Assembly (NCBI GenBank): GCA_016214325.1
Contig: JACROS010000080.1
Span: forward strand, 1-39,101
Reading direction: 5' to 3'
Source: Candidatus Omnitrophota bacterium
GTDB lineage: Bacteria; Omnitrophota; Gorgyraeia; Gygaellales; Profunditerraquicolaceae
Length of the DNA stretch: 39,101 bases
A program made the translations under genes and the position numbers. This document shows, in pieces, positions 19,039 through 39,101 of this stretch; positions within the stretch are counted from its first letter, which is position 1, and each line of letters begins with the position of its first letter. The notes beneath the pieces were generated by a model, which saw nothing but the letters and a program-made list of their open reading frames with translations, had not been told where the DNA came from and ran no database searches.

Positions 19039-20154
19039 ATGAATACTCGTTATTATCGCCCCACATGGGCAGAAGTTAATTTGGGAAACTTGGGTTATAA
19101 TTTCAGGCAGATAAAAAAGCATCTTAGCCCTGAGACGTTAGTCATGGTAACAGTTAAGGCAGATGCCTATGGGCATGGTTTACTGCCGGTGGCGAAGCGG
19201 CTTGTCAGAGAAGGGGTGGATTTCCTCGGAGTTGCATCTATTGATGAAGGAATCAAGCTTAGGGAGTCTGGGGTAATTAAGCCAATATTAATTCTTGGAA
19301 TAATTCTCAAAGAAGATATTGCGCCTGTCTTTAAATACAATCTTACTCCTACAGTTTGCGATCTTGATTTGGCGCGTGCCTTAAACAACAAAGCAAAGTC
19401 TTTAGGAAGAAGTATAAATATTCATATAAAAGTTGACACTGGTATGGGCCGTATCGGGGTTTTGCACCAGGATGCTTTTGTTTTGGTAAGAAAGGTTAGT
19501 GAATTTAAGCATCTTAATGTAGAAGGCCTTTTTACCCATTTTGCTTTTGCTGACGTGGATCAAGATTTTACTTTGCATCAGGCGCGATTGTTGGAGGGGT
19601 TGGTAAATAAGCTAAAGCAAGAAGGGGTACATATTGCATTAATTCACGCTGCAAACAGCATGGGAGTTATTGATTGTAAAAATGCACATTTTAATATGGT
19701 TAGGCCCGGGTTGGTTATTTATGGGCTTTATCCTAAGCAAAACTTAAAGATTCATTTGAAGCCAGTGTTGAGTTTAAAGACAAGAGTTGTTTATGCTAAA
19801 AATGTCCCTGCTGGATACGGCGTAAGTTACGGGCATGCCTATATAACAAAGAAGTCTTCTAGGATTGTTACTTTACCGATTGGTTATGGCGATGGATATC
19901 CTCGGAATTTATCTAATATTGCTCCTGTTTTAATTAGGGGCAGGCGGTTTAAGGTTAGCGGAAGAATTTGCATGGATCAGATTATGGTTGATGTGGGCCG
20001 TGTCCCGGTTGGTGTTGGAGAGGAAGTAGTTTTGATTGGTAAGCAACTAAGAAATACTGTTTCTGCCGAAGAGTTAGCCAGTAAGAGCGGCACTATCCCT
20101 TATGAAATAGCCTGCGGTTTGGGGAGCCGTATTCCCAGAGTTTATATTGATTAA
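19039..20154 (+). CDS. alr: Alanine racemase
   Basis: PLP enzyme interconverting L- and D-alanine for peptidoglycan. The PLP lysine motif is MVTVKADAYGHG (about residue 40); further motifs are HIKVDTGMGRIGV, VRPGLVIYGLYP, LPIGYGDGYPRNL and RICMDQIMVDVG. The 371-residue length is standard. It ends the plus-strand block; its TAA overlaps the stop of lptG on the other strand. Confidence 0.96.
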   Translation: MNTRYYRPTWAEVNLGNLGYNFRQIKKHLSPETLVMVTVKADAYGHGLLPVAKRLVREGVDFLGVASIDEGIKLRESGVIKPILILGIILKEDIAPVFKYNLTPTVCDLDLARALNNKAKSLGRSINIHIKVDTGMGRIGVLHQDAFVLVRKVSEFKHLNVEGLFTHFAFADVDQDFTLHQARLLEGLVNKLKQEGVHIALIHAANSMGVIDCKNAHFNMVRPGLVIYGLYPKQNLKIHLKPVLSLKTRVVYAKNVPAGYGVSYGHAYITKKSSRIVTLPIGYGDGYPRNLSNIAPVLIRGRRFKVSGRICMDQIMVDVGRVPVGVGEEVVLIGKQLRNTVSAEELASKSGTIPYEIACGLGSRIPRVYID

Positions 20155-21251
20155 GGAAGTGTTTTTATAAAATAGATTCCTGCAGAAAGCCCGATAATAT
20201 GGCTGAGGGATGCAGAGAGCATGGGAGGTAGAATTCCTCCTTTTCCAAGAGCGATGCTAACGGCATCAAGAATATAGTAGAGAAATCCCACCAAGATTGA
20301 TACCCCGATAGAAAATAATCCAGTTGCTTTTCTACGCATTATCAAAGAAAAAGGAATCCCTAAAAGAATGATAATCAAATTTGTAAACGGGGAAGCGAAT
20401 CTTTGATAAAGGTCAACTTTTAAATTGCGGATTACGCTTGAGGCCCCGCTTTTTGACAGCCGCCAGATGTAATCTTCAAGCTGTGGAATGGTCATAAAAT
20501 CCGGGCGCTGTCTTTGGTTTTGGAAATCCGCAGGTTTCTCCGGAATAGACATAAGTTCTTCTTCAAAATATGTGGGTTCTTGAATAACCTGCCCGTTCTT
20601 GTCAAAATTATAAGTTATACACTGATAGAATTTCCACAATCCATCCGAAAAGATTCCTTTTTGGGCGACGATTTTCTTGGTTATATTTTGATGTTCGTCA
20701 TGCTCTAAAATGGTAATTCCTTCCAGGGTGTTGTCGGCAACAGCAAACTTGTTGATGAAGAATAAGCGGTTTTTGATTCCATACATAGAAAGATTATTGA
20801 TTACTTCTTGGCGTTTTTCTTTTGATTTTCCTACACCGTAATCCATTTGTTCCCGGATATTTACCAGCCGGGCTTGTGAGCGGGCTATTACAGAGTTATT
20901 TACATAGAAGACAAAAATACTGATTATTAATCCAAATACAATTGTGTTTCTTGTAATTTGAAAAACGCTTTGGCCAGATGAACGCATGGCGATAATTTCA
21001 TTATCTTGATTTAGTTTTCCGAATGAATAAAGCGTGCTTAAGAGGCAGGCAAACGGGGAGACTTGCACAAACATAACAGGAAGGTTTAGTAAATAGTATT
21101 GAGCAAGGATATAAATCGGGACTTTTTTTTTTTTTTTTTCTTCAAGGCGGGTAAGTACGACTATGATGACATAAAGGAAAAGAAAAATAAAAATGCAGGA
21201 TAAAAATATTTTTACAACTGGTTTTAGCGTGTAGCGGTCTAAGATGCGCAT
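20151..21251 (-). CDS. lptG: LPS export permease LptG-like
   Basis: YjgP/YjgQ-family permease of the LptBFG complex, which extracts LPS from the inner membrane. Six membrane helices are arranged in the family pattern: one N-terminal pair, a third with VQVSPFACLLSTLYSFGKL, a fourth, then a periplasmic beta-jellyroll (about residues 130-265), and two C-terminal helices. NEIIAMRSSGQSVFQI is the typical coupling-helix motif. It is second in the comF-lptF-lptG order, overlapping lptF by 13 bases, so LptG is the better label, although F/G assignment is partly positional. Odd: a 17-A run in the coding strand encodes five lysines near residue 40. Confidence 0.88.
   Translation of the reverse strand: MRILDRYTLKPVVKIFLSCIFIFLFLYVIIVVLTRLEEKKKKKVPIYILAQYYLLNLPVMFVQVSPFACLLSTLYSFGKLNQDNEIIAMRSSGQSVFQITRNTIVFGLIISIFVFYVNNSVIARSQARLVNIREQMDYGVGKSKEKRQEVINNLSMYGIKNRLFFINKFAVADNTLEGITILEHDEHQNITKKIVAQKGIFSDGLWKFYQCITYNFDKNGQVIQEPTYFEEELMSIPEKPADFQNQRQRPDFMTIPQLEDYIWRLSKSGASSVIRNLKVDLYQRFASPFTNLIIILLGIPFSLIMRRKATGLFSIGVSILVGFLYYILDAVSIALGKGGILPPMLSASLSHIIGLSAGIYFIKTLP
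21123..21139 (-). repeat. 17-base mononucleotide tract inside lptG
   Basis: Seventeen consecutive T on the plus strand (A on the coding strand) lie in lptG, encoding the lysines of LEEKKKKKVP just after the first membrane helix. Tracts this long are slippage-prone both in replication and in sequencing. In the present length lptG reads through in frame. Confidence 0.9.
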
Positions 21252-22339
21252 ATTTTAATGGTTAAAAATGTCCCAATTGCGGCAAAAATAGCGTTTGGTA
21301 TCCACATGGAAATATAGGGATTAATTTTTCCTTCCATGCCCAGGGCCGCAGCTCCAATAATAAGCGGGTAGTAGATAAGAATAATTAATACGGCAATACC
21401 TATATTAATTGATTTTTCTCTGCGCCGTGTGATTAAAGCAAGTGGAGCACCAATAAGTATAAATACAAAACATGATAATGCCAGGTTAATTTTTTCATTT
21501 ATTTGAGTGATAAGGGGAGCAGGGTCAATTCCTTCTTTTTTAAGTTTGTTAATTTCCTGCTGGAGTTCTTTGATGGTCATGTCTTTTGGTTTTTTATCCA
21601 GTTTTCCTTTGTTCCCCTGAGAAAGATTCAGATTCATAAAATATGTTTTGAAATTTAGTTTATAAAAATTTGTGGGGTTTTCTAAATCAGGCTCATCAGA
21701 TGTTCCGTCAACGAGTTTGAGTTTTATTATTTTCTTCTCGGGGATAGCAATAAATTCTCCGCTTTTAGCGATAATGGTGCGGGTAGGTTTTCCTTCCTGT
21801 GGTTCATAAATGCGCACATTATAGATTTTATTCTTTTTTTGGTCCACGCGGTAAATGAAGAGAATATATTTTTGAAAAGAATTAATAAACACGCCTTCTT
21901 CAAAGGCAGCGGTTGGGTTTTTGAGCCCAACCTGAGTCAGGGTTTGACGGTAAGCATAATGCGCATAGGCAGAGGCGCGGTCATTAAAAATTATAAGTGC
22001 TAAGCTCAAGATTGCTCCGACTACAATAAAAGGTAAAACAAGTTTAATAATATTCACTCCGCTTGAGCGTATAGCTATAACTTCGTTGTCACCGGCAAGC
22101 CTTCCTAATGATAAAAGTACTGCGATTAATACGGAGATGGGCAGGGCATAGGTGACTATATAGGGCATCATAAATAAGAAAAGTTTTGAAACACTGATAA
22201 TATCCACGCCTTTGTTAATAACTAAGTCAGCAATTCTTTTAAGATTTCCGACAAGCACCATTACAAAGCTTAATACGCCTAAGGTAAAGAATAGAGGCGT
22301 AAGAAATTCCCTAAGAAAGTAGTTGCGTAAAGTTTTCAT
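21239..22339 (-). CDS. lptF: LPS export permease LptF-like
   Basis: The other YjgP/YjgQ-family permease. It begins MKTLRNYFLREFLTPLFFTL, the usual amphipathic N-terminus plus first helix. Further features are YIVTYALPISVLIAVLLSLG, the coupling motif NEVIAIRSSGVNIIKL, a periplasmic domain (about residues 130-260) and two final membrane helices containing GAPLALITRRREK. At 366 residues it equals lptG in length. It starts 3 bases after comF and overlaps lptG, so the three genes form one minus-strand operon. Presence of LptFG implies an LPS-type outer membrane. Confidence 0.88.
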   Translation of the reverse strand: MKTLRNYFLREFLTPLFFTLGVLSFVMVLVGNLKRIADLVINKGVDIISVSKLFLFMMPYIVTYALPISVLIAVLLSLGRLAGDNEVIAIRSSGVNIIKLVLPFIVVGAILSLALIIFNDRASAYAHYAYRQTLTQVGLKNPTAAFEEGVFINSFQKYILFIYRVDQKKNKIYNVRIYEPQEGKPTRTIIAKSGEFIAIPEKKIIKLKLVDGTSDEPDLENPTNFYKLNFKTYFMNLNLSQGNKGKLDKKPKDMTIKELQQEINKLKKEGIDPAPLITQINEKINLALSCFVFILIGAPLALITRRREKSINIGIAVLIILIYYPLIIGAAALGMEGKINPYISMWIPNAIFAAIGTFLTIKICAS

Positions 22340-29464: not shown

Positions 29465-30286
29465 ATGTTTCCGAGAGATGGAAAAATGATAAAAGAAAAT
29501 ACAAGACAATATTTGAGCCCCAGGGAAAAAGAAATCATAGCAAGGCTTGCTTATGAAAAGGTTTCGCTTGTAACAATAGAGCAGTTTGACAGGTATTTCA
29601 GGCTTCCTGGAAGAGCGAGGGAAAAGATACTTTTTAGGCTTAACAAACAGGGTATATTAAAAAAGATAAAGAAAGGCGTTTATTTTTATTCTTCTCTTGA
29701 ATCAGGGCCGGCAGGAAGCAATATAAATGAATTTCTGATCCCGCAGGTTTTTTTCCCGGAAGGCAATTATTATGTTGGTTATGCAACTATGTATAATTAT
29801 TATGGTTTTACTGACCAACTTTTTCAGGTTATGTATATTCTTAACACTTCGTTGCAAAGGGAAAGGGCTATGGGTAGGCTGCGTTTTAAAATGGTTAAAA
29901 TTTCCCCAAAGCGGATGTACGGGCTTGAAAAGATCAAGGTTAGAGATGTGGATGTTATTGTTAGTGACAAAGAGAGAACTCTTGTTGACTTAATTTATTT
30001 TCCAGAGCCCGTCGGTGGCATGGGAAAGGCGTTTGAGATATTAAGAGAACAGGTAGATAACGATAAGATAAATATTAAGAAATTGATAAAATATTCTTTG
30101 AAATTTCCGGATAGCTCGACAATTAAAAGAATCGGATATATTCTTGAGAAAGCAGGCCTGAATGATAAAGTTCTTATGCCTTTGTTGAAGGTGGCTAAAA
30201 AGACATCGTTAATTAATCTCTATCCTTCAAAATCGCGTAAGGGTAAGATAAATGGGAGATGGATGGTAATTGAAAATGCTGCATAA
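29465..30286 (+). CDS. AbiEi-like transcriptional regulator (putative antitoxin, module B)
   Basis: 273 residues (266 if the ATG at 29486 is used). The N-terminus YLSPREKEIIARLAYEKVSL and the following ILFRLNKQGILKKIKKGVYF form a winged-helix typical of AbiEi-family proteins. VSDKERTLVDLIYFPE and the helical C-terminal half match the remaining AbiEi architecture. In abiE systems AbiEi represses its own promoter and neutralises the AbiEii toxin. It overlaps the downstream toxin gene by 11 bases. Confidence 0.82.
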   Translation: MFPRDGKMIKENTRQYLSPREKEIIARLAYEKVSLVTIEQFDRYFRLPGRAREKILFRLNKQGILKKIKKGVYFYSSLESGPAGSNINEFLIPQVFFPEGNYYVGYATMYNYYGFTDQLFQVMYILNTSLQRERAMGRLRFKMVKISPKRMYGLEKIKVRDVDVIVSDKERTLVDLIYFPEPVGGMGKAFEILREQVDNDKINIKKLIKYSLKFPDSSTIKRIGYILEKAGLNDKVLMPLLKVAKKTSLINLYPSKSRKGKINGRWMVIENAA

Positions 30287-31148
30287 CGATAAAGGTGAAT
30301 TTATAAAAATTCTTGAAAGGACTTCAGCGCAGACGGGGTTCCCTCTGAGGCTTCTTGAGAAGGATTACTACATTACTGTGGTACTCTCAAAAATAAATAA
30401 GTTGAGCGGAGATCTTATTTTTAAAGGCGGAACGTGTTTAAGCAAAATTTATTATTCTTATTATCGTTTAAGTGAGGATATGGATTTTACCCTTAAACTG
30501 CCTGGTAATGCAACGAGGACAATCCGCAGCAATGCCATGAGGCCTATAAAGGAATTAATGAAATCTTTTCTTAAAGAATTTGGCATGAGCATAGAAGGTT
30601 TGGAGAGGGCGGGGCACAGGGAATCAACACAGTATATATTTTTCCTGGATTATAATTCAGTTGTGCTTAGCAAAAAGGAGTCAATAAAACTTGAAATAGG
30701 CTTGAGGTTTAATCCCGTTCTTTCGTCTGTAACAAAAAAAGTGAACCATAAGTTTTTGCATCCATTTACAAAAGAACCGCTTTTTGATGCTGGTTCTGTA
30801 AGTTGCCTTGCGGCAAAAGAGCTTGTCGCAGAGAAGTTGAGGGCTGCTGCGACGAGAGAAACAATTGCAGCCAGGGATTTCTATGATTTGGGTTATTTAT
30901 TAAAAGAAAAATTTGATTTTAAGGATAAAGTGTTTCTTTCGCTTTTTAAGAAAAAACTGGAAGAAGACAACTTTTCTCCTGATTTGGCAAAATACAAGGT
31001 TAATCTAGGCAGGACTGATAAGGAAATAGATGAAATGAAATCAAGGGTTGGGGATGAGTTGCTTTCTGTGCTGACCACTGATGAGCAGAAATCATTTGAT
31101 ATGCAGAAGATTTTGGATAAATTGAACAATGCGTTTGGCAACAAATAA
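30276..31148 (+). CDS. AbiEii-type nucleotidyltransferase toxin (module B)
   Basis: 290 residues from ATG 30276; a TTG at 30270 is also in frame. The family hallmarks are LLEKDYYITVVLSKI, FKGGTCLSKIYYSYYRLSED with MDFTL right after, IKLEIGLRF, and the C-terminal ELVAEKLRAAATRETIAARD. This matches the classic AbiEii proteins more closely than the module A enzyme does. With the AbiEi-like gene upstream it forms a complete abiE-type pair. Confidence 0.87.
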   Translation: MLHNDKGEFIKILERTSAQTGFPLRLLEKDYYITVVLSKINKLSGDLIFKGGTCLSKIYYSYYRLSEDMDFTLKLPGNATRTIRSNAMRPIKELMKSFLKEFGMSIEGLERAGHRESTQYIFFLDYNSVVLSKKESIKLEIGLRFNPVLSSVTKKVNHKFLHPFTKEPLFDAGSVSCLAAKELVAEKLRAAATRETIAARDFYDLGYLLKEKFDFKDKVFLSLFKKKLEEDNFSPDLAKYKVNLGRTDKEIDEMKSRVGDELLSVLTTDEQKSFDMQKILDKLNNAFGNK

Positions 31149-35907: not shown

Positions 35908-36549
35908 ATGGAAAAAGAAAATTTAGCCAGCTTAAAACAAAAGTTGCACGCGCTTTTAAATAAAGAAGCGCTAAAAAGAGGAAAATTTATTTTATCAAGC
36001 GGTAAAGAGAGTAATTATTATCTTGATGGAAGAGTGATTACTTTAACTCCGGAAGGCGCGTATTTGGTTGGGAGTATTATTTTAGAAATGACTAATCAGG
36101 ATAAGCTGGATGCAATTGGCGGCCCGACATTAGGAGCAGATCCGATTGTAGGAGCAGTTGCTTGTTTGGCTCATCTTAAAAATATTCCCATTAAAACATT
36201 TATCGTGCGTAAAGCTGCCAAGGAGCATGGTACTCAGCGCCAAGTTGAAGGGCCGGCATTAAAAGAAAAAGCCCGCGTAGTTTTGGTTGATGATGTGGCA
36301 ACGACGGGTAAAGCGCTTATCGAGGCTAAGCAGGCGCTTGATAAAATTGGGGTTATTGCTGAGAAAGCAATTGTAATTGTTGACTGCAATGAGGGCGGGG
36401 CAGAAAATTTAGCCAAAGTCGGCCTTAAATTAGAATCAATCTCTCGTCATTGTCAGGATCGTGATAAGCCAAGTTCGTCATTGCGAGGAGCGCGAAGCGC
36501 GACGAAGCAATCTCTTTTATGTCTGAACATCAAAGTTACGTCTACTTAA
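35908..36549 (+). CDS. pyrE: Orotate phosphoribosyltransferase with repeat-derived C-terminal tail
   Basis: Makes orotidine monophosphate from orotate and PRPP. Motifs: KRGKFILSSGKESNYYLDGR, GGPTLGADPIVG, TFIVRKAAKEHGTQRQVEG and the PRPP loop VVLVDDVATTGKALIEAK. Normal PyrE sequence ends near residue 185 (AKVGLKLESIS). The remaining residues, through SSLRGARSATKQSLL, are translated from the interspersed repeat at 36476-36514 and are not part of the family. The original C-terminus of about 10 residues appears lost. AAGGAAG precedes the ATG. Confidence 0.92.
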   Translation: MEKENLASLKQKLHALLNKEALKRGKFILSSGKESNYYLDGRVITLTPEGAYLVGSIILEMTNQDKLDAIGGPTLGADPIVGAVACLAHLKNIPIKTFIVRKAAKEHGTQRQVEGPALKEKARVVLVDDVATTGKALIEAKQALDKIGVIAEKAIVIVDCNEGGAENLAKVGLKLESISRHCQDRDKPSSSLRGARSATKQSLLCLNIKVTST

Positions 36550-36840
36550 TGATGAATAAAGCAAATACCGTAATATATACAGGCGTAACGAGTGATTTAA
36601 AAAAGAGAATTTATCAACATAAAGAGAATTTCGTTGATGGTTTCACTAAAAGATACAAAGTTCATAAGTTAGTTTATTATGAACAGTTTAATGATGTAGA
36701 AAATGCGATTTTAAGGGAAAAACAAATTAAGGGTGGTTCAAGGAATAAGAAATTAGCTTTGATTAGTTTAAATAATCCTAATTTTGAGGATTTATTTGAT
36801 AAGATTTGAGATTGCTTCGCCCTGCGGGCTCGCAATGACG
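36476..36840 (+). mobile_element. GIY-YIG ORF flanked by inverted interspersed repeats
   Basis: The left repeat (36476-36514) begins CGTCATTGCGAGGAGCGCGA and ends GACGAAGCAATCTC. The right one (36808-36840) is the reverse orientation, beginning GAGATTGCTTCGCCCTGCGG and ending CTCGCAATGACG. Both outer ends therefore read CGTCATTGCGAG inward and GAAGCAATCTC inside. Each repeat can fold into a hairpin, and each ends within a few bases of the ORF boundaries. The unit interrupts the end of pyrE. I recall CGTCATTGCGAG-type repeats as scattered in many bacterial genomes; that this unit moves as one cassette is inference. Confidence 0.6.
36519..36809 (+). CDS. GIY-YIG nuclease-domain protein
   Basis: 96 residues covering one GIY-YIG domain of the small YhbQ/UvrC-like type. 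The pair of tyrosine motifs is YVYLM and YTGVTSDL; the catalytic Arg lies in LKKRIYQHKE, and the Glu-containing stretch AILREKQIKG follows. Family proteins are metal-dependent DNA nucleases, often linked to mobile elements. The gene starts 5 bases after the left repeat, overlaps the pyrE extension and ends at the right repeat. Confidence 0.82.
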   Translation: MSEHQSYVYLMMNKANTVIYTGVTSDLKKRIYQHKENFVDGFTKRYKVHKLVYYEQFNDVENAILREKQIKGGSRNKKLALISLNNPNFEDLFDKI

Positions 36841-36877: not shown

Positions 36878-38038
36878 ATGACTATTGTTAAAAAGATTAT
36901 TGTTATTGGAGGTGGGCCGGCAGGGATGATGGCTGCAATTCGCGCCGGCCAACTGCACCAGCAAGTTGTTCTTCTTGAGAAAAATGCTGGTTTAGGAAAG
37001 AAGCTTCTTTTAAGCGGAAAGGGTAGATGCAATTTAACTAATGCCTGTAGTCTTGAGGAGTTTTTGGCGCGTTTTTCTAAAAACGGGCAGTTTTTAAGGG
37101 ATGCTTTTAAGAAATTCTTCAACCAGGACTTGATGAATTTCTTTGAAGAAAGAGGCTTGCCTGTAAAAGTAGAAAGGCAAATGCGGGTGTTTCCCGTATC
37201 GGACAGATCAGCTAGTGTTCTTGAGGTTCTGGAAAAAGAATTAATTAAGAATAAAGTGGAGATAATTTTTAAGGCTAAAATAAAGAACTTATCTATTGTA
37301 GACAATAAGGTTAGGGGTTTGTATTTGGCTGGGGATGAGTTTATCTTGGCTGATAGAATAATTATTGCTACCGGAGGGATTTCTTTTGCGATTACCGGGT
37401 CTACGGGTGATGGTTTTGAATTTGCGCGTAAACTTGGGCATGCGGTTACAGCGCTTGCTCCGGGAAATAGAGAGATTGTTTCTGAAATCGGAGAATTGTT
37501 GTTTACTTTTTTTGGGATTTCCGGCCCGTTGGTTTTAACTTTAAGCGGCAAGATAGTTAATTGGTTAAATGAAAATAAAAAAGTTTATGCCCAGATAGAT
37601 TTAAAGCCTGGATTATCAAAAGAGCAATTGAATAATCGTTTATTGCGTGAATTTAGCGCGAATCCGAGGAAAAATATAAAGAATGTGTTAAAAGGATTGC
37701 TGCCCTTAAGGCTTGTGGATGTTTTTCTTGAAATTGCAAAGATTAATCCTGAGATCAGGGTAAATCAAATTAGCCGGCAGGCGCGCGAAGGAATAGTTGA
37801 TCTTTTAAAAGCTTTTCGGCTTGATATTGCAGGTTCGCTTCCTCTTGAGGAGGCAATGGTTACGCAAGGAGGAGTTTCTTTAAAAGAAATAAATCCGCGC
37901 ACCATGGAATCTCGCAAAATAAAAGGATTATATTTTGCCGGCGAGATGATTGATGTGGATGCTGATACTGGCGGGTTTAATTTGCAGGCGGCATTTTCTA
38001 CTGGTTATTTAGCAGGAGAAAGTGCTGCATTATCATGA
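36878..38038 (+). CDS. NAD(P)/FAD-dependent oxidoreductase, BaiN/HI0933 family
   Basis: Flavoprotein with N-terminal VIGGGPAGMMAAIRAG and the family motif LLLSGKGRCNLTNAC. The C-terminal signature is VTQGGVSLKEINPRTMESRK with GLYFAGEMIDVDADTGGFNL. Function in this family is poorly defined. At 386 residues it is shorter than usual (about 400-420). Between TALAP (about residue 195) and SEIGELLFTFFGISGP the expected segment of about 30 residues (normally LVPL followed by a beta-rich stretch) is missing, while the frame is kept. It overlaps the following maf start (ATGA). A TATAAT box at 36864-36869 could be its promoter, but no good -35 is seen. Confidence 0.85.
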   Translation: MTIVKKIIVIGGGPAGMMAAIRAGQLHQQVVLLEKNAGLGKKLLLSGKGRCNLTNACSLEEFLARFSKNGQFLRDAFKKFFNQDLMNFFEERGLPVKVERQMRVFPVSDRSASVLEVLEKELIKNKVEIIFKAKIKNLSIVDNKVRGLYLAGDEFILADRIIIATGGISFAITGSTGDGFEFARKLGHAVTALAPGNREIVSEIGELLFTFFGISGPLVLTLSGKIVNWLNENKKVYAQIDLKPGLSKEQLNNRLLREFSANPRKNIKNVLKGLLPLRLVDVFLEIAKINPEIRVNQISRQAREGIVDLLKAFRLDIAGSLPLEEAMVTQGGVSLKEINPRTMESRKIKGLYFAGEMIDVDADTGGFNLQAAFSTGYLAGESAALS

Positions 38039-39101
38039 GAAAAATATATTTGGCAAGTGATTCAAAGGCACGCAGGAAACTATTTCGGATTTTTGGTTTA
38101 AAGTTTCAGGTGATTCCGAGTAAAGTTGAAGAGAAGATGCATCCGGAGAAAATGTCTTATGCCGCATTAGCCAAGCACAACGCGCTTTTAAAGGCTAAGG
38201 CAGTTAGCCAAAAAATAAGAACTGGTGTTGTTGTTGCTGCAGATACAATTATTGTGCAGGATGGTAAAGTATTCGGGAAACCGAGTTCAATAAAGAATGC
38301 CAATTCCATGCTTAAGAATCTTTCACAAAAGCCACAGCATCTTTATACGGGTTTGGCAGTAATTGACACGGATAATCAGAAAATAAAAGTTGCAGTTGAA
38401 AAGACTAAAATTTATATGGATAAATTAAGCAGCTCCGAAATAAAAAATTATTTTAAAAATGTTTCTCCTCTGGATAAGGCGGGAAGTTTTGATATCCAAG
38501 GTCAGGGAGCGTTTTTTATCCGTCGGATTGAAGGTTGTTTTTATAATGTGGTGGGTTTACCGCTACGCCGGTTGTATCTTATGTTTAAGGAATTGGGGAT
38601 AAAAGTGTTTATGTTGTTGGTTTGCGGGTTGTGGTTTACGACATGTGTGTTTATTTCTGGATGCTCTACTGAATATAATATTGTTACTGGCCAGGAAGAA
38701 ACCTATTATTATTCTACTGATAGCGAGGAGAAAATGGGCCAGGCAATTGCCAAGCAGGTTGAAAAAGAATACAAAATGACTAATGACCCTTTGGTGCAAA
38801 AGCGGGTTGAAGATATTGGCAAGAAAATTGCTGCAGTTTGTGACAGAAAAGAAATTGATTATAAATTTAATGTGATAGAAGACGAAGAAGTAAATGCTGT
38901 TTCGCTTCCCGGCGGGTATGTTTATGTGAATAAGGGGCTGGTTGATAAAGTTGCCAATGACGACGAGCTGGCTGCGGTTTTAGCTCATGAAATTGGTCAC
39001 GTAGTTGCCCGCCACAGCATAAAGAAACTCCAGGCAATGCAGGCATATTCTGTATTAAGGATATTAATTGCCGCGGCGCCCGGTTCAGGTAATGCAGGCA
39101 A
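38035..39101 (+). CDS. Maf-like nucleotide pyrophosphatase fused in frame to an M48 metalloprotease lipoprotein (3' partial)
   Basis: The frame is open from ATG 38035 (overlapping the previous stop) to the window end, 355 codons without a stop. Residues 1-185 are Maf: YLASDSKARRKLFRIFG, the AADTIIVQDGKVFGKP motif with Asp70, and SFDIQGQGAFFIRRIEGCFY with NVVGLPLRRLYL. The next stretch, from Met183, looks like a lipoprotein signal: MFKELGIK, a hydrophobic core, then FISGC with Cys210. It continues as an M48 protease with VNAVSLPGGYVYVNKGL and the zinc site HEIGH (318-322). A separate start at 38581 or 38611 within Maf could also give the secreted protease. The Maf part is a cytosolic enzyme, so a true fusion would place it across the membrane from the protease. 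Confidence 0.85.
   Translation, partial: MRKIYLASDSKARRKLFRIFGLKFQVIPSKVEEKMHPEKMSYAALAKHNALLKAKAVSQKIRTGVVVAADTIIVQDGKVFGKPSSIKNANSMLKNLSQKPQHLYTGLAVIDTDNQKIKVAVEKTKIYMDKLSSSEIKNYFKNVSPLDKAGSFDIQGQGAFFIRRIEGCFYNVVGLPLRRLYLMFKELGIKVFMLLVCGLWFTTCVFISGCSTEYNIVTGQEETYYYSTDSEEKMGQAIAKQVEKEYKMTNDPLVQKRVEDIGKKIAAVCDRKEIDYKFNVIEDEEVNAVSLPGGYVYVNKGLVDKVANDDELAAVLAHEIGHVVARHSIKKLQAMQAYSVLRILIAAAPGSGNAG

Follow-up and report, generated by a model that had tools for sequence, protein, structure and literature searches.

The last open reading frame of the window, that is, of the whole 39,101-nt stretch of Candidatus Omnitrophota DNA analysed here, carries a Maf domain, an internal lipoprotein signal and an M48 metalloprotease part on one uninterrupted chain (Table 1). 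The gene product is probably a precursor that yields two proteins, with Maf kept inside the cell and the M48 part outside, by means of lipidation by Lgt and a cut by LspA. The window represents the entire contig G000:C57, and therefore the C-terminus of the M48 part falls outside it. The original prediction had proposed that no stop codon separates Maf from a lipobox (FISGC) and a HEIGH protease; this is borne out by the reading frame, which is open from Maf through M48 under table 11 with no recoding required and has Pfam domains on both sides of the junction. The full-length gene of a same-genus relative is likewise a single ORF of 454 aa. The Maf start overlaps the end of the HI0933-like gene by 4 nt (ATGA), and an Rfam scan of the window gave no match.

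Table 1. Coordinates of the fused gene, its parts and its upstream neighbour in the window
Feature	Position	Strand	Basis or remark
Maf-(internal lipoprotein signal)-M48 fused ORF	38035..39099	+	355 codons, ATG start, open at contig end
Maf domain, residues 3-186	38041..38592	+	Pfam PF02545, E 2.1e-51
Maf C-terminal helix tail MFKELGIK, residues 183-190	38581..38604	+	Alignment of fused junctions
Hydrophobic stretch, residues 191-205, as h-region	38605..38649	+	
Lipobox FISGC, residues 206-210 (Cys210 codon 38662-38664)	38650..38664	+	
M48 metalloprotease part, truncated by contig end	38665..39099	+	Pfam PF01435, residues 253-347, E 5.4e-22
HEIGH motif of M48 part, residues 318-322	38986-39000	+	
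HI0933-like flavoprotein gene, upstream context	36878..38038	+	Pfam PF03486, E 1.6e-85

The Maf-M48 join is real and old. A search of orthologues for the same join, as the original prediction had advised, recovered it free of stops in 104 of 384 Omnitrophota genomes and, within the window's own family, in 64 of 71 sampled genomes (both counted by hand, the former from the listing). Among the 384 genomes, 105 listed matches cover both domains, one of which (G390) contains a TAG, and the matches of two of the 104 joined genomes (G391 and G235) begin within Maf. After removal of 20 duplicate loci, 113 distinct fused ORFs, spread over 12 families (f1, f2, f3, f20, f23, f27, f32, f39, f41, f44, f51 and f53) made up the alignment. 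This set retains three genes cut by contig ends (L030, without the Maf N-terminus; L054 and the window's own gene, without the C-terminus) as well as L051, which has a break in its M48 part; G391, G235 and G183, in which the join is present, partly at contig edges, stand outside it. A scan reaching close relatives only returned 24 loci, all from Omnitrophota or Omnitrophica. Chance, sequencing error, a chimera or a lost stop as the origin of the join is ruled out, since it recurs in independent assemblies of relatives and in all 113 distinct ORFs. Among the unfused members of the family, G181 has a Maf that ends at a stop, with an unrelated ORF behind it that brings its own signal-like start, Maf is lost in G355, and the Maf of G249 lies at a contig edge; in G219, G345, G027 and G388 a second M48 was found alone (42-47% identity) and the fused-type locus was not found. 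Both genes intact, adjacent yet separate, were seen in none of the 71 family genomes. As a separate observation, the window's genome (G000) also has a stand-alone M48 gene (L002, G000:C72:7248-7700) of 46% identity, and in G181 (L157/L200) a short inverted repeat, CCCCGTTAGAGA...TCTCTAACGGGG, follows the TAG of Maf at the place expected for M48.

Both enzymes are kept within the fusion. The signature residues of Maf have been described as Ser10, Arg13, Glu33, Lys52/53, Asp70 and Lys82 (PMC3899018); S10, R13, K53, D70 and K82 occur in 112/112 fused sequences and E33 in 111/112, one of the 113 rows being cut by a contig edge. With regard to the marks of the YhdE subfamily, Arg12 and Thr71, the latter is present in 107/112, while position 12 is Ala in 82, Gln in 24 and Arg in none. 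On the protease side, HExxH is found in 112/112, and the counterparts of the BepA zinc ligands, HP plug and Arg (PMC7950410), namely E376, H422, P423 and R428, are found in 110/110 relatives; the window sequence stops before E376. Comparison of the window's gene with a same-genus gene gives a dN/dS of 0.07 in the Maf half and 0.08 in the M48 half; thus, both halves of this pair are under purifying selection. Furthermore, a Pfam search of 28 chosen genomes gave the fused Maf as the sole Maf in 22/22 fused family genomes, G000 itself having one PF02545 match, which is located in the fused ORF. The fused Maf is hence no redundant copy and, being the only Maf, must function from the fused precursor; with its signature intact, it is predicted to act as a nucleotide pyrophosphatase, Maf enzymes being hydrolases of (modified) nucleotides of the UTP/TTP type.

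The Maf part matches 1ex2 at 1.7e-29 (phmmer), and the predicted structure of a relative, P0002 (21 rows, mean pLDDT 70.7), superposes on the Maf structure 4heb with a VIA Z of 24.3 over 182 residues at 2.0 A, and on BepA (6ait) with a Z of 20.1 over 172 residues at 2.6 A, with 3c37 giving a Z of 19.2. The model falls below a pLDDT of 50 at residues 193-229, which span the junction, and is silent on topology. P0002 misses the NCBIfam cut-offs for LoiP (72.6/365 bits) and for BepA (128.7/570 bits), the latter match being limited to the first ~250 of 483 positions; as judged by these profile scores, the protease part is a member of the M48 family and not a LoiP or BepA equivalog.

Both the definition of lipoprotein signals and their prediction place them at the N-terminus. 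Here, a lipobox of the pattern [L/V/I..][S/A/T..][G/A]C follows a hydrophobic stretch that is preceded by basic residues, as in a lipoprotein, but these basic residues are supplied by the tail of Maf and the signal begins ~183 residues into the ORF. The spacer is zero, the C-terminal helix of Maf (MFKELGIK in the window) continuing directly into the hydrophobic stretch. The lipobox Cys is kept in 113/113 fused ORFs, with Gly at -1 in 111 (the exceptions being one Ser and one Ala) and Leu at -3 in 70; the uncharged stretch ahead of the Cys measures 11-24 residues, with a median of 16. At +2, directly behind the Cys, the fused ORFs carry Ser, Ala, Thr, Gly, Val, Met or Tyr, and none of the 113 has Asp there. 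The sorting rule of E. coli lipoproteins reads this +2 residue, and the absence of Asp therefore favours the outer membrane as destination, with the qualification that the rule is that of E. coli and may not be that of this phylum. The suggestion that the last Maf residues double as the n-region of the signal is strengthened by comparison with 31 stop-terminated Mafs: position 190, immediately ahead of the hydrophobic stretch, holds an acidic residue in 18 of them vs 1 of 113 fused Mafs, and the mean net charge of the last 14 Maf residues is +2.4 (n=31) vs +3.5. The contrast in tail charge is confounded by relatedness and its p-values are overstated, because many of the 31 stop-terminated Mafs come from one family; nevertheless, the direction of the difference fits a Maf tail that would serve as signal n-region. 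The genes for Lgt and LspA are direct neighbours in the window's genome.

Outside the family, the junction appears to have been opened and closed repeatedly. In other members of the class, a stop separates the neighbouring maf and m48 genes, which often overlap. The original prediction held that two-gene relatives would speak against the fusion; such relatives do exist in other families and in mixed clades, but there they point to switching and not to error. In family f6 the genes are separate in 9/9 loci examined, and in 6 of the 9 the ATG that opens the M48 frame lies within the final codons of Maf, in a different frame, while families f32 and f27 contain fused and separate forms interleaved with one another. 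G390, which lies within a fused clade, has an in-frame TAG, behind which both the Met and the basic n-region are new. In G043, an order-level relative that is the sister of the fused G036 in a 125-row tree, Maf is nearly all lost, its start and first ~17 residues being fused to a stretch made up of the last residues of Maf, the signal and M48, and a separate Maf is present elsewhere in the genome. G355, a member of the window's own family, has no PF02545 match in its genome by Pfam search, and the first residues of its M48, MGLPLLK..., resemble the Maf motif GLP(L) with the signal behind it. Thus, in the two relatives without the Maf core (G043 and G355), a Maf piece remains ahead of the protease signal after deletion of Maf. 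These patterns, taken together, indicate that the junction can open and close. An 86-row unrooted tree (61 of the 113 fused and 25 separate rows, without L146 and L153) requires 11 changes between the fused and separate states, at least 4 of them forced by well-supported branches; the earlier 125-row tree, also unrooted, held 10 separate rows only and was built without L146, L151, L152 and L153. As read from these trees and loci, the state has switched repeatedly. Since the partner has been lost in G355 and G181 and the genes are separate and adjacent in sister lineages, the linkage is not essential. The wider gene order pyrE-(HI0933)-maf-m48 itself seems old, because in families f4 and f7 (L145, L151 and L152) the M48 gene directly follows the pyrE-like gene; fusion was seen in none of the genomes examined from these two families.

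Three other readings of the locus have to be weighed against a precursor that is lipidated and cut. The most serious of them, though unlikely, is that nested starts produce the M48 lipoprotein on its own and the upstream start gives a Maf with a hydrophobic, M48-bearing extension. The internal ATGs first pointed out at 38581 (Met183) and 38611 (Met193) are correctly placed, a GTG lies at 38605, and translation from within would give MFKELGIK-VFMLLV...FISGC, a normal lipoprotein signal. Across the fused genes, 104/113 have some start codon allowing a 14-32-residue signal with a basic n-region, and residue 183 is an ATG in 82/113, being Ile, Leu, Val, Ala or Cys otherwise. Nine of the 113 nevertheless have no ATG, GTG or TTG giving such a signal with a basic residue, and four of these genes (L026, L027, L074 and L095) have no start codon at all within 35 codons of the lipobox Cys. 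Met183 is moreover frequent in stop-terminated Mafs too (18/31), and the Maf start is retained in G043 despite the loss of Maf. SD-like motifs precede ATG183 in 11% of cases (n=81) vs 19% for other in-frame Maf ATGs (n=289), a test that carries little weight since the Maf start itself, at 12% (n=112), shows no enrichment. Nested starts are accordingly not conserved and, on codon content, not supported as the general source of two products which the original prediction had entertained, even though a second product from an internal start is possible in the 104 genes with a suitable codon, the window's own gene (38581, 38605 or 38611) among them.

Less probable still is an uncut, two-sided membrane protein, in which the signal would be a lasting anchor with Maf inside and M48 outside, their activities possibly linked. 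The single chain and the two intact active sites are in keeping with it, and in 35/113 the uncharged stretch ahead of the Cys reaches 18 residues or more, which is of membrane-spanning length. The stretch is shorter than 18 residues in the other 78/113, however, an uncut protein offers no reason for the lipobox to be retained in all 113, and partner loss and fission in several lineages show that both halves work apart. A permanent internal anchor, an option first suggested in the original prediction, is possible but less likely. It is very improbable that the join is a neutral run-on, in which coupled neighbours lost their stop by drift to leave a functionless join and inefficient export of M48. 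Such a course would suit the separate genes, which are neighbours and often overlap, and the at least 4 (up to 11) changes of state on the 86-row tree; yet the join is near-fixed in the family, intact separate neighbours are absent from its sampled genomes, and both domains and the lipobox are strictly kept. The strictly kept lipobox, together with stretches mostly below 18 residues, speaks for a signal that undergoes lipidation and cleavage, which is the preferred reading.

According to the preferred reading, in which one precursor is cut into two proteins, Maf would be translated first and would fold in the cytosol, whereupon its basic C-terminal helix and the hydrophobic stretch would together be recognised as a mid-chain lipoprotein signal. 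The signal would be inserted with its N side inside and the M48 part exported, Cys210 would be lipidated by Lgt, and LspA would cut the chain before Cys210. The first product would be a nucleotide pyrophosphatase on the cytosolic side with a short hydrophobic tail, by which it may be held at the membrane; the second would be a mature M48 lipoprotein protease resembling YcaL, LoiP or BepA. We infer lipidation and cutting from three features, namely the lipobox, the shortness of the hydrophobic stretch and the occurrence of Lgt and LspA in the genome; membrane insertion and the destination membrane of the protease are to be taken in the same conditional sense. Whether Omnitrophota employ LspA to split precursors at an internal lipobox, with a housekeeping cytosolic enzyme as N-terminal cargo, a tail possibly held in the inner membrane and the protease supplied 1:1, is in our estimation an even call.

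Several further features of the window merit mention in their own right. Within the M48 part, a 240-nt tract (38695-38934) shares ~99.6% DNA identity with G001, a genome of the same genus, the rest of the fused gene showing mostly 65-95% identity per block; eight further pairs of relatives had no block so sharply distinct, and the tract is likely to be a recent recombination or an assembly chimera. Upstream, a GIY-YIG ORF (36519-36809, PF01541) lies between a phosphoribosyltransferase (pyrE-like) gene, the end of which reads SLRGARSATKQSL..., and the HI0933 gene, with an imperfect 21-nt direct repeat nearby at 36444 and 36475, so that the region 36444-36809 looks like a small mobile insertion. 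An AbiEi/AbiEii type IV toxin-antitoxin pair (PF09407, PF08843) is located at 29465-31148, and two adjacent LptF/LptG permease genes lie on the minus strand at 20151-22339, the latter in line with a diderm, LPS-exporting cell.

If the proposed cut is true, a lipoprotein signal need not sit near the N-terminus, signal predictors that scan chain starts alone overlook a class of internal lipoboxes, and Lgt and LspA tolerate signals that are preceded by large, folded cytosolic domains. Such a cut would furthermore constitute a simple bacterial route from one chain to two proteins for two compartments, for which the sister lineages provide natural controls in the form of separate genes, a lone M48 with a Maf remnant and a fission with a new start.

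A search of the open-licence PMC literature found no description of a Maf-M48 fusion or of an internal lipobox. Maf-methyltransferase fusions, M48 lipoproteins and the cutting of a bacterial precursor at an internal signal are already known; new, in that no description was found, is the placing of an internal lipobox behind a cytosolic enzyme, conserved across a dozen families. The fused Maf shares its full fold and signature residues with the Maf nucleotide pyrophosphatases (YhdE/YceF and B. subtilis Maf), for which the known fusion partner is a methyltransferase, as in human ASMTL (PMC3899018). Known Mafs are soluble or methyltransferase-fused, whereas the fused Maf of Omnitrophota continues into a lipoprotein signal and a protease predicted to be exported. 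HExxH, the third ligand Glu, the HP plug and the Arg are common to the fused M48 and to YcaL, LoiP and BepA. YcaL and LoiP are outer-membrane lipoproteins, and all three proteases start with their own signal peptide; while their M48 domain stands behind that peptide, the fused M48 stands behind Maf and an internal signal. The closest parallel to the proposed cut is the FbcH cytochrome b-c1 precursor of Bradyrhizobium, the internal signal of which is cut by signal peptidase. FbcH is a single precursor that yields two proteins by a cut at an internal export signal, as is proposed for the Omnitrophota fusion. The parts of FbcH, however, are membrane or exported respiratory subunits, whereas here a cytosolic enzyme precedes a lipobox, and the enzyme that cuts FbcH is signal peptidase, whereas the Omnitrophota fusion would use LspA and not signal peptidase I.
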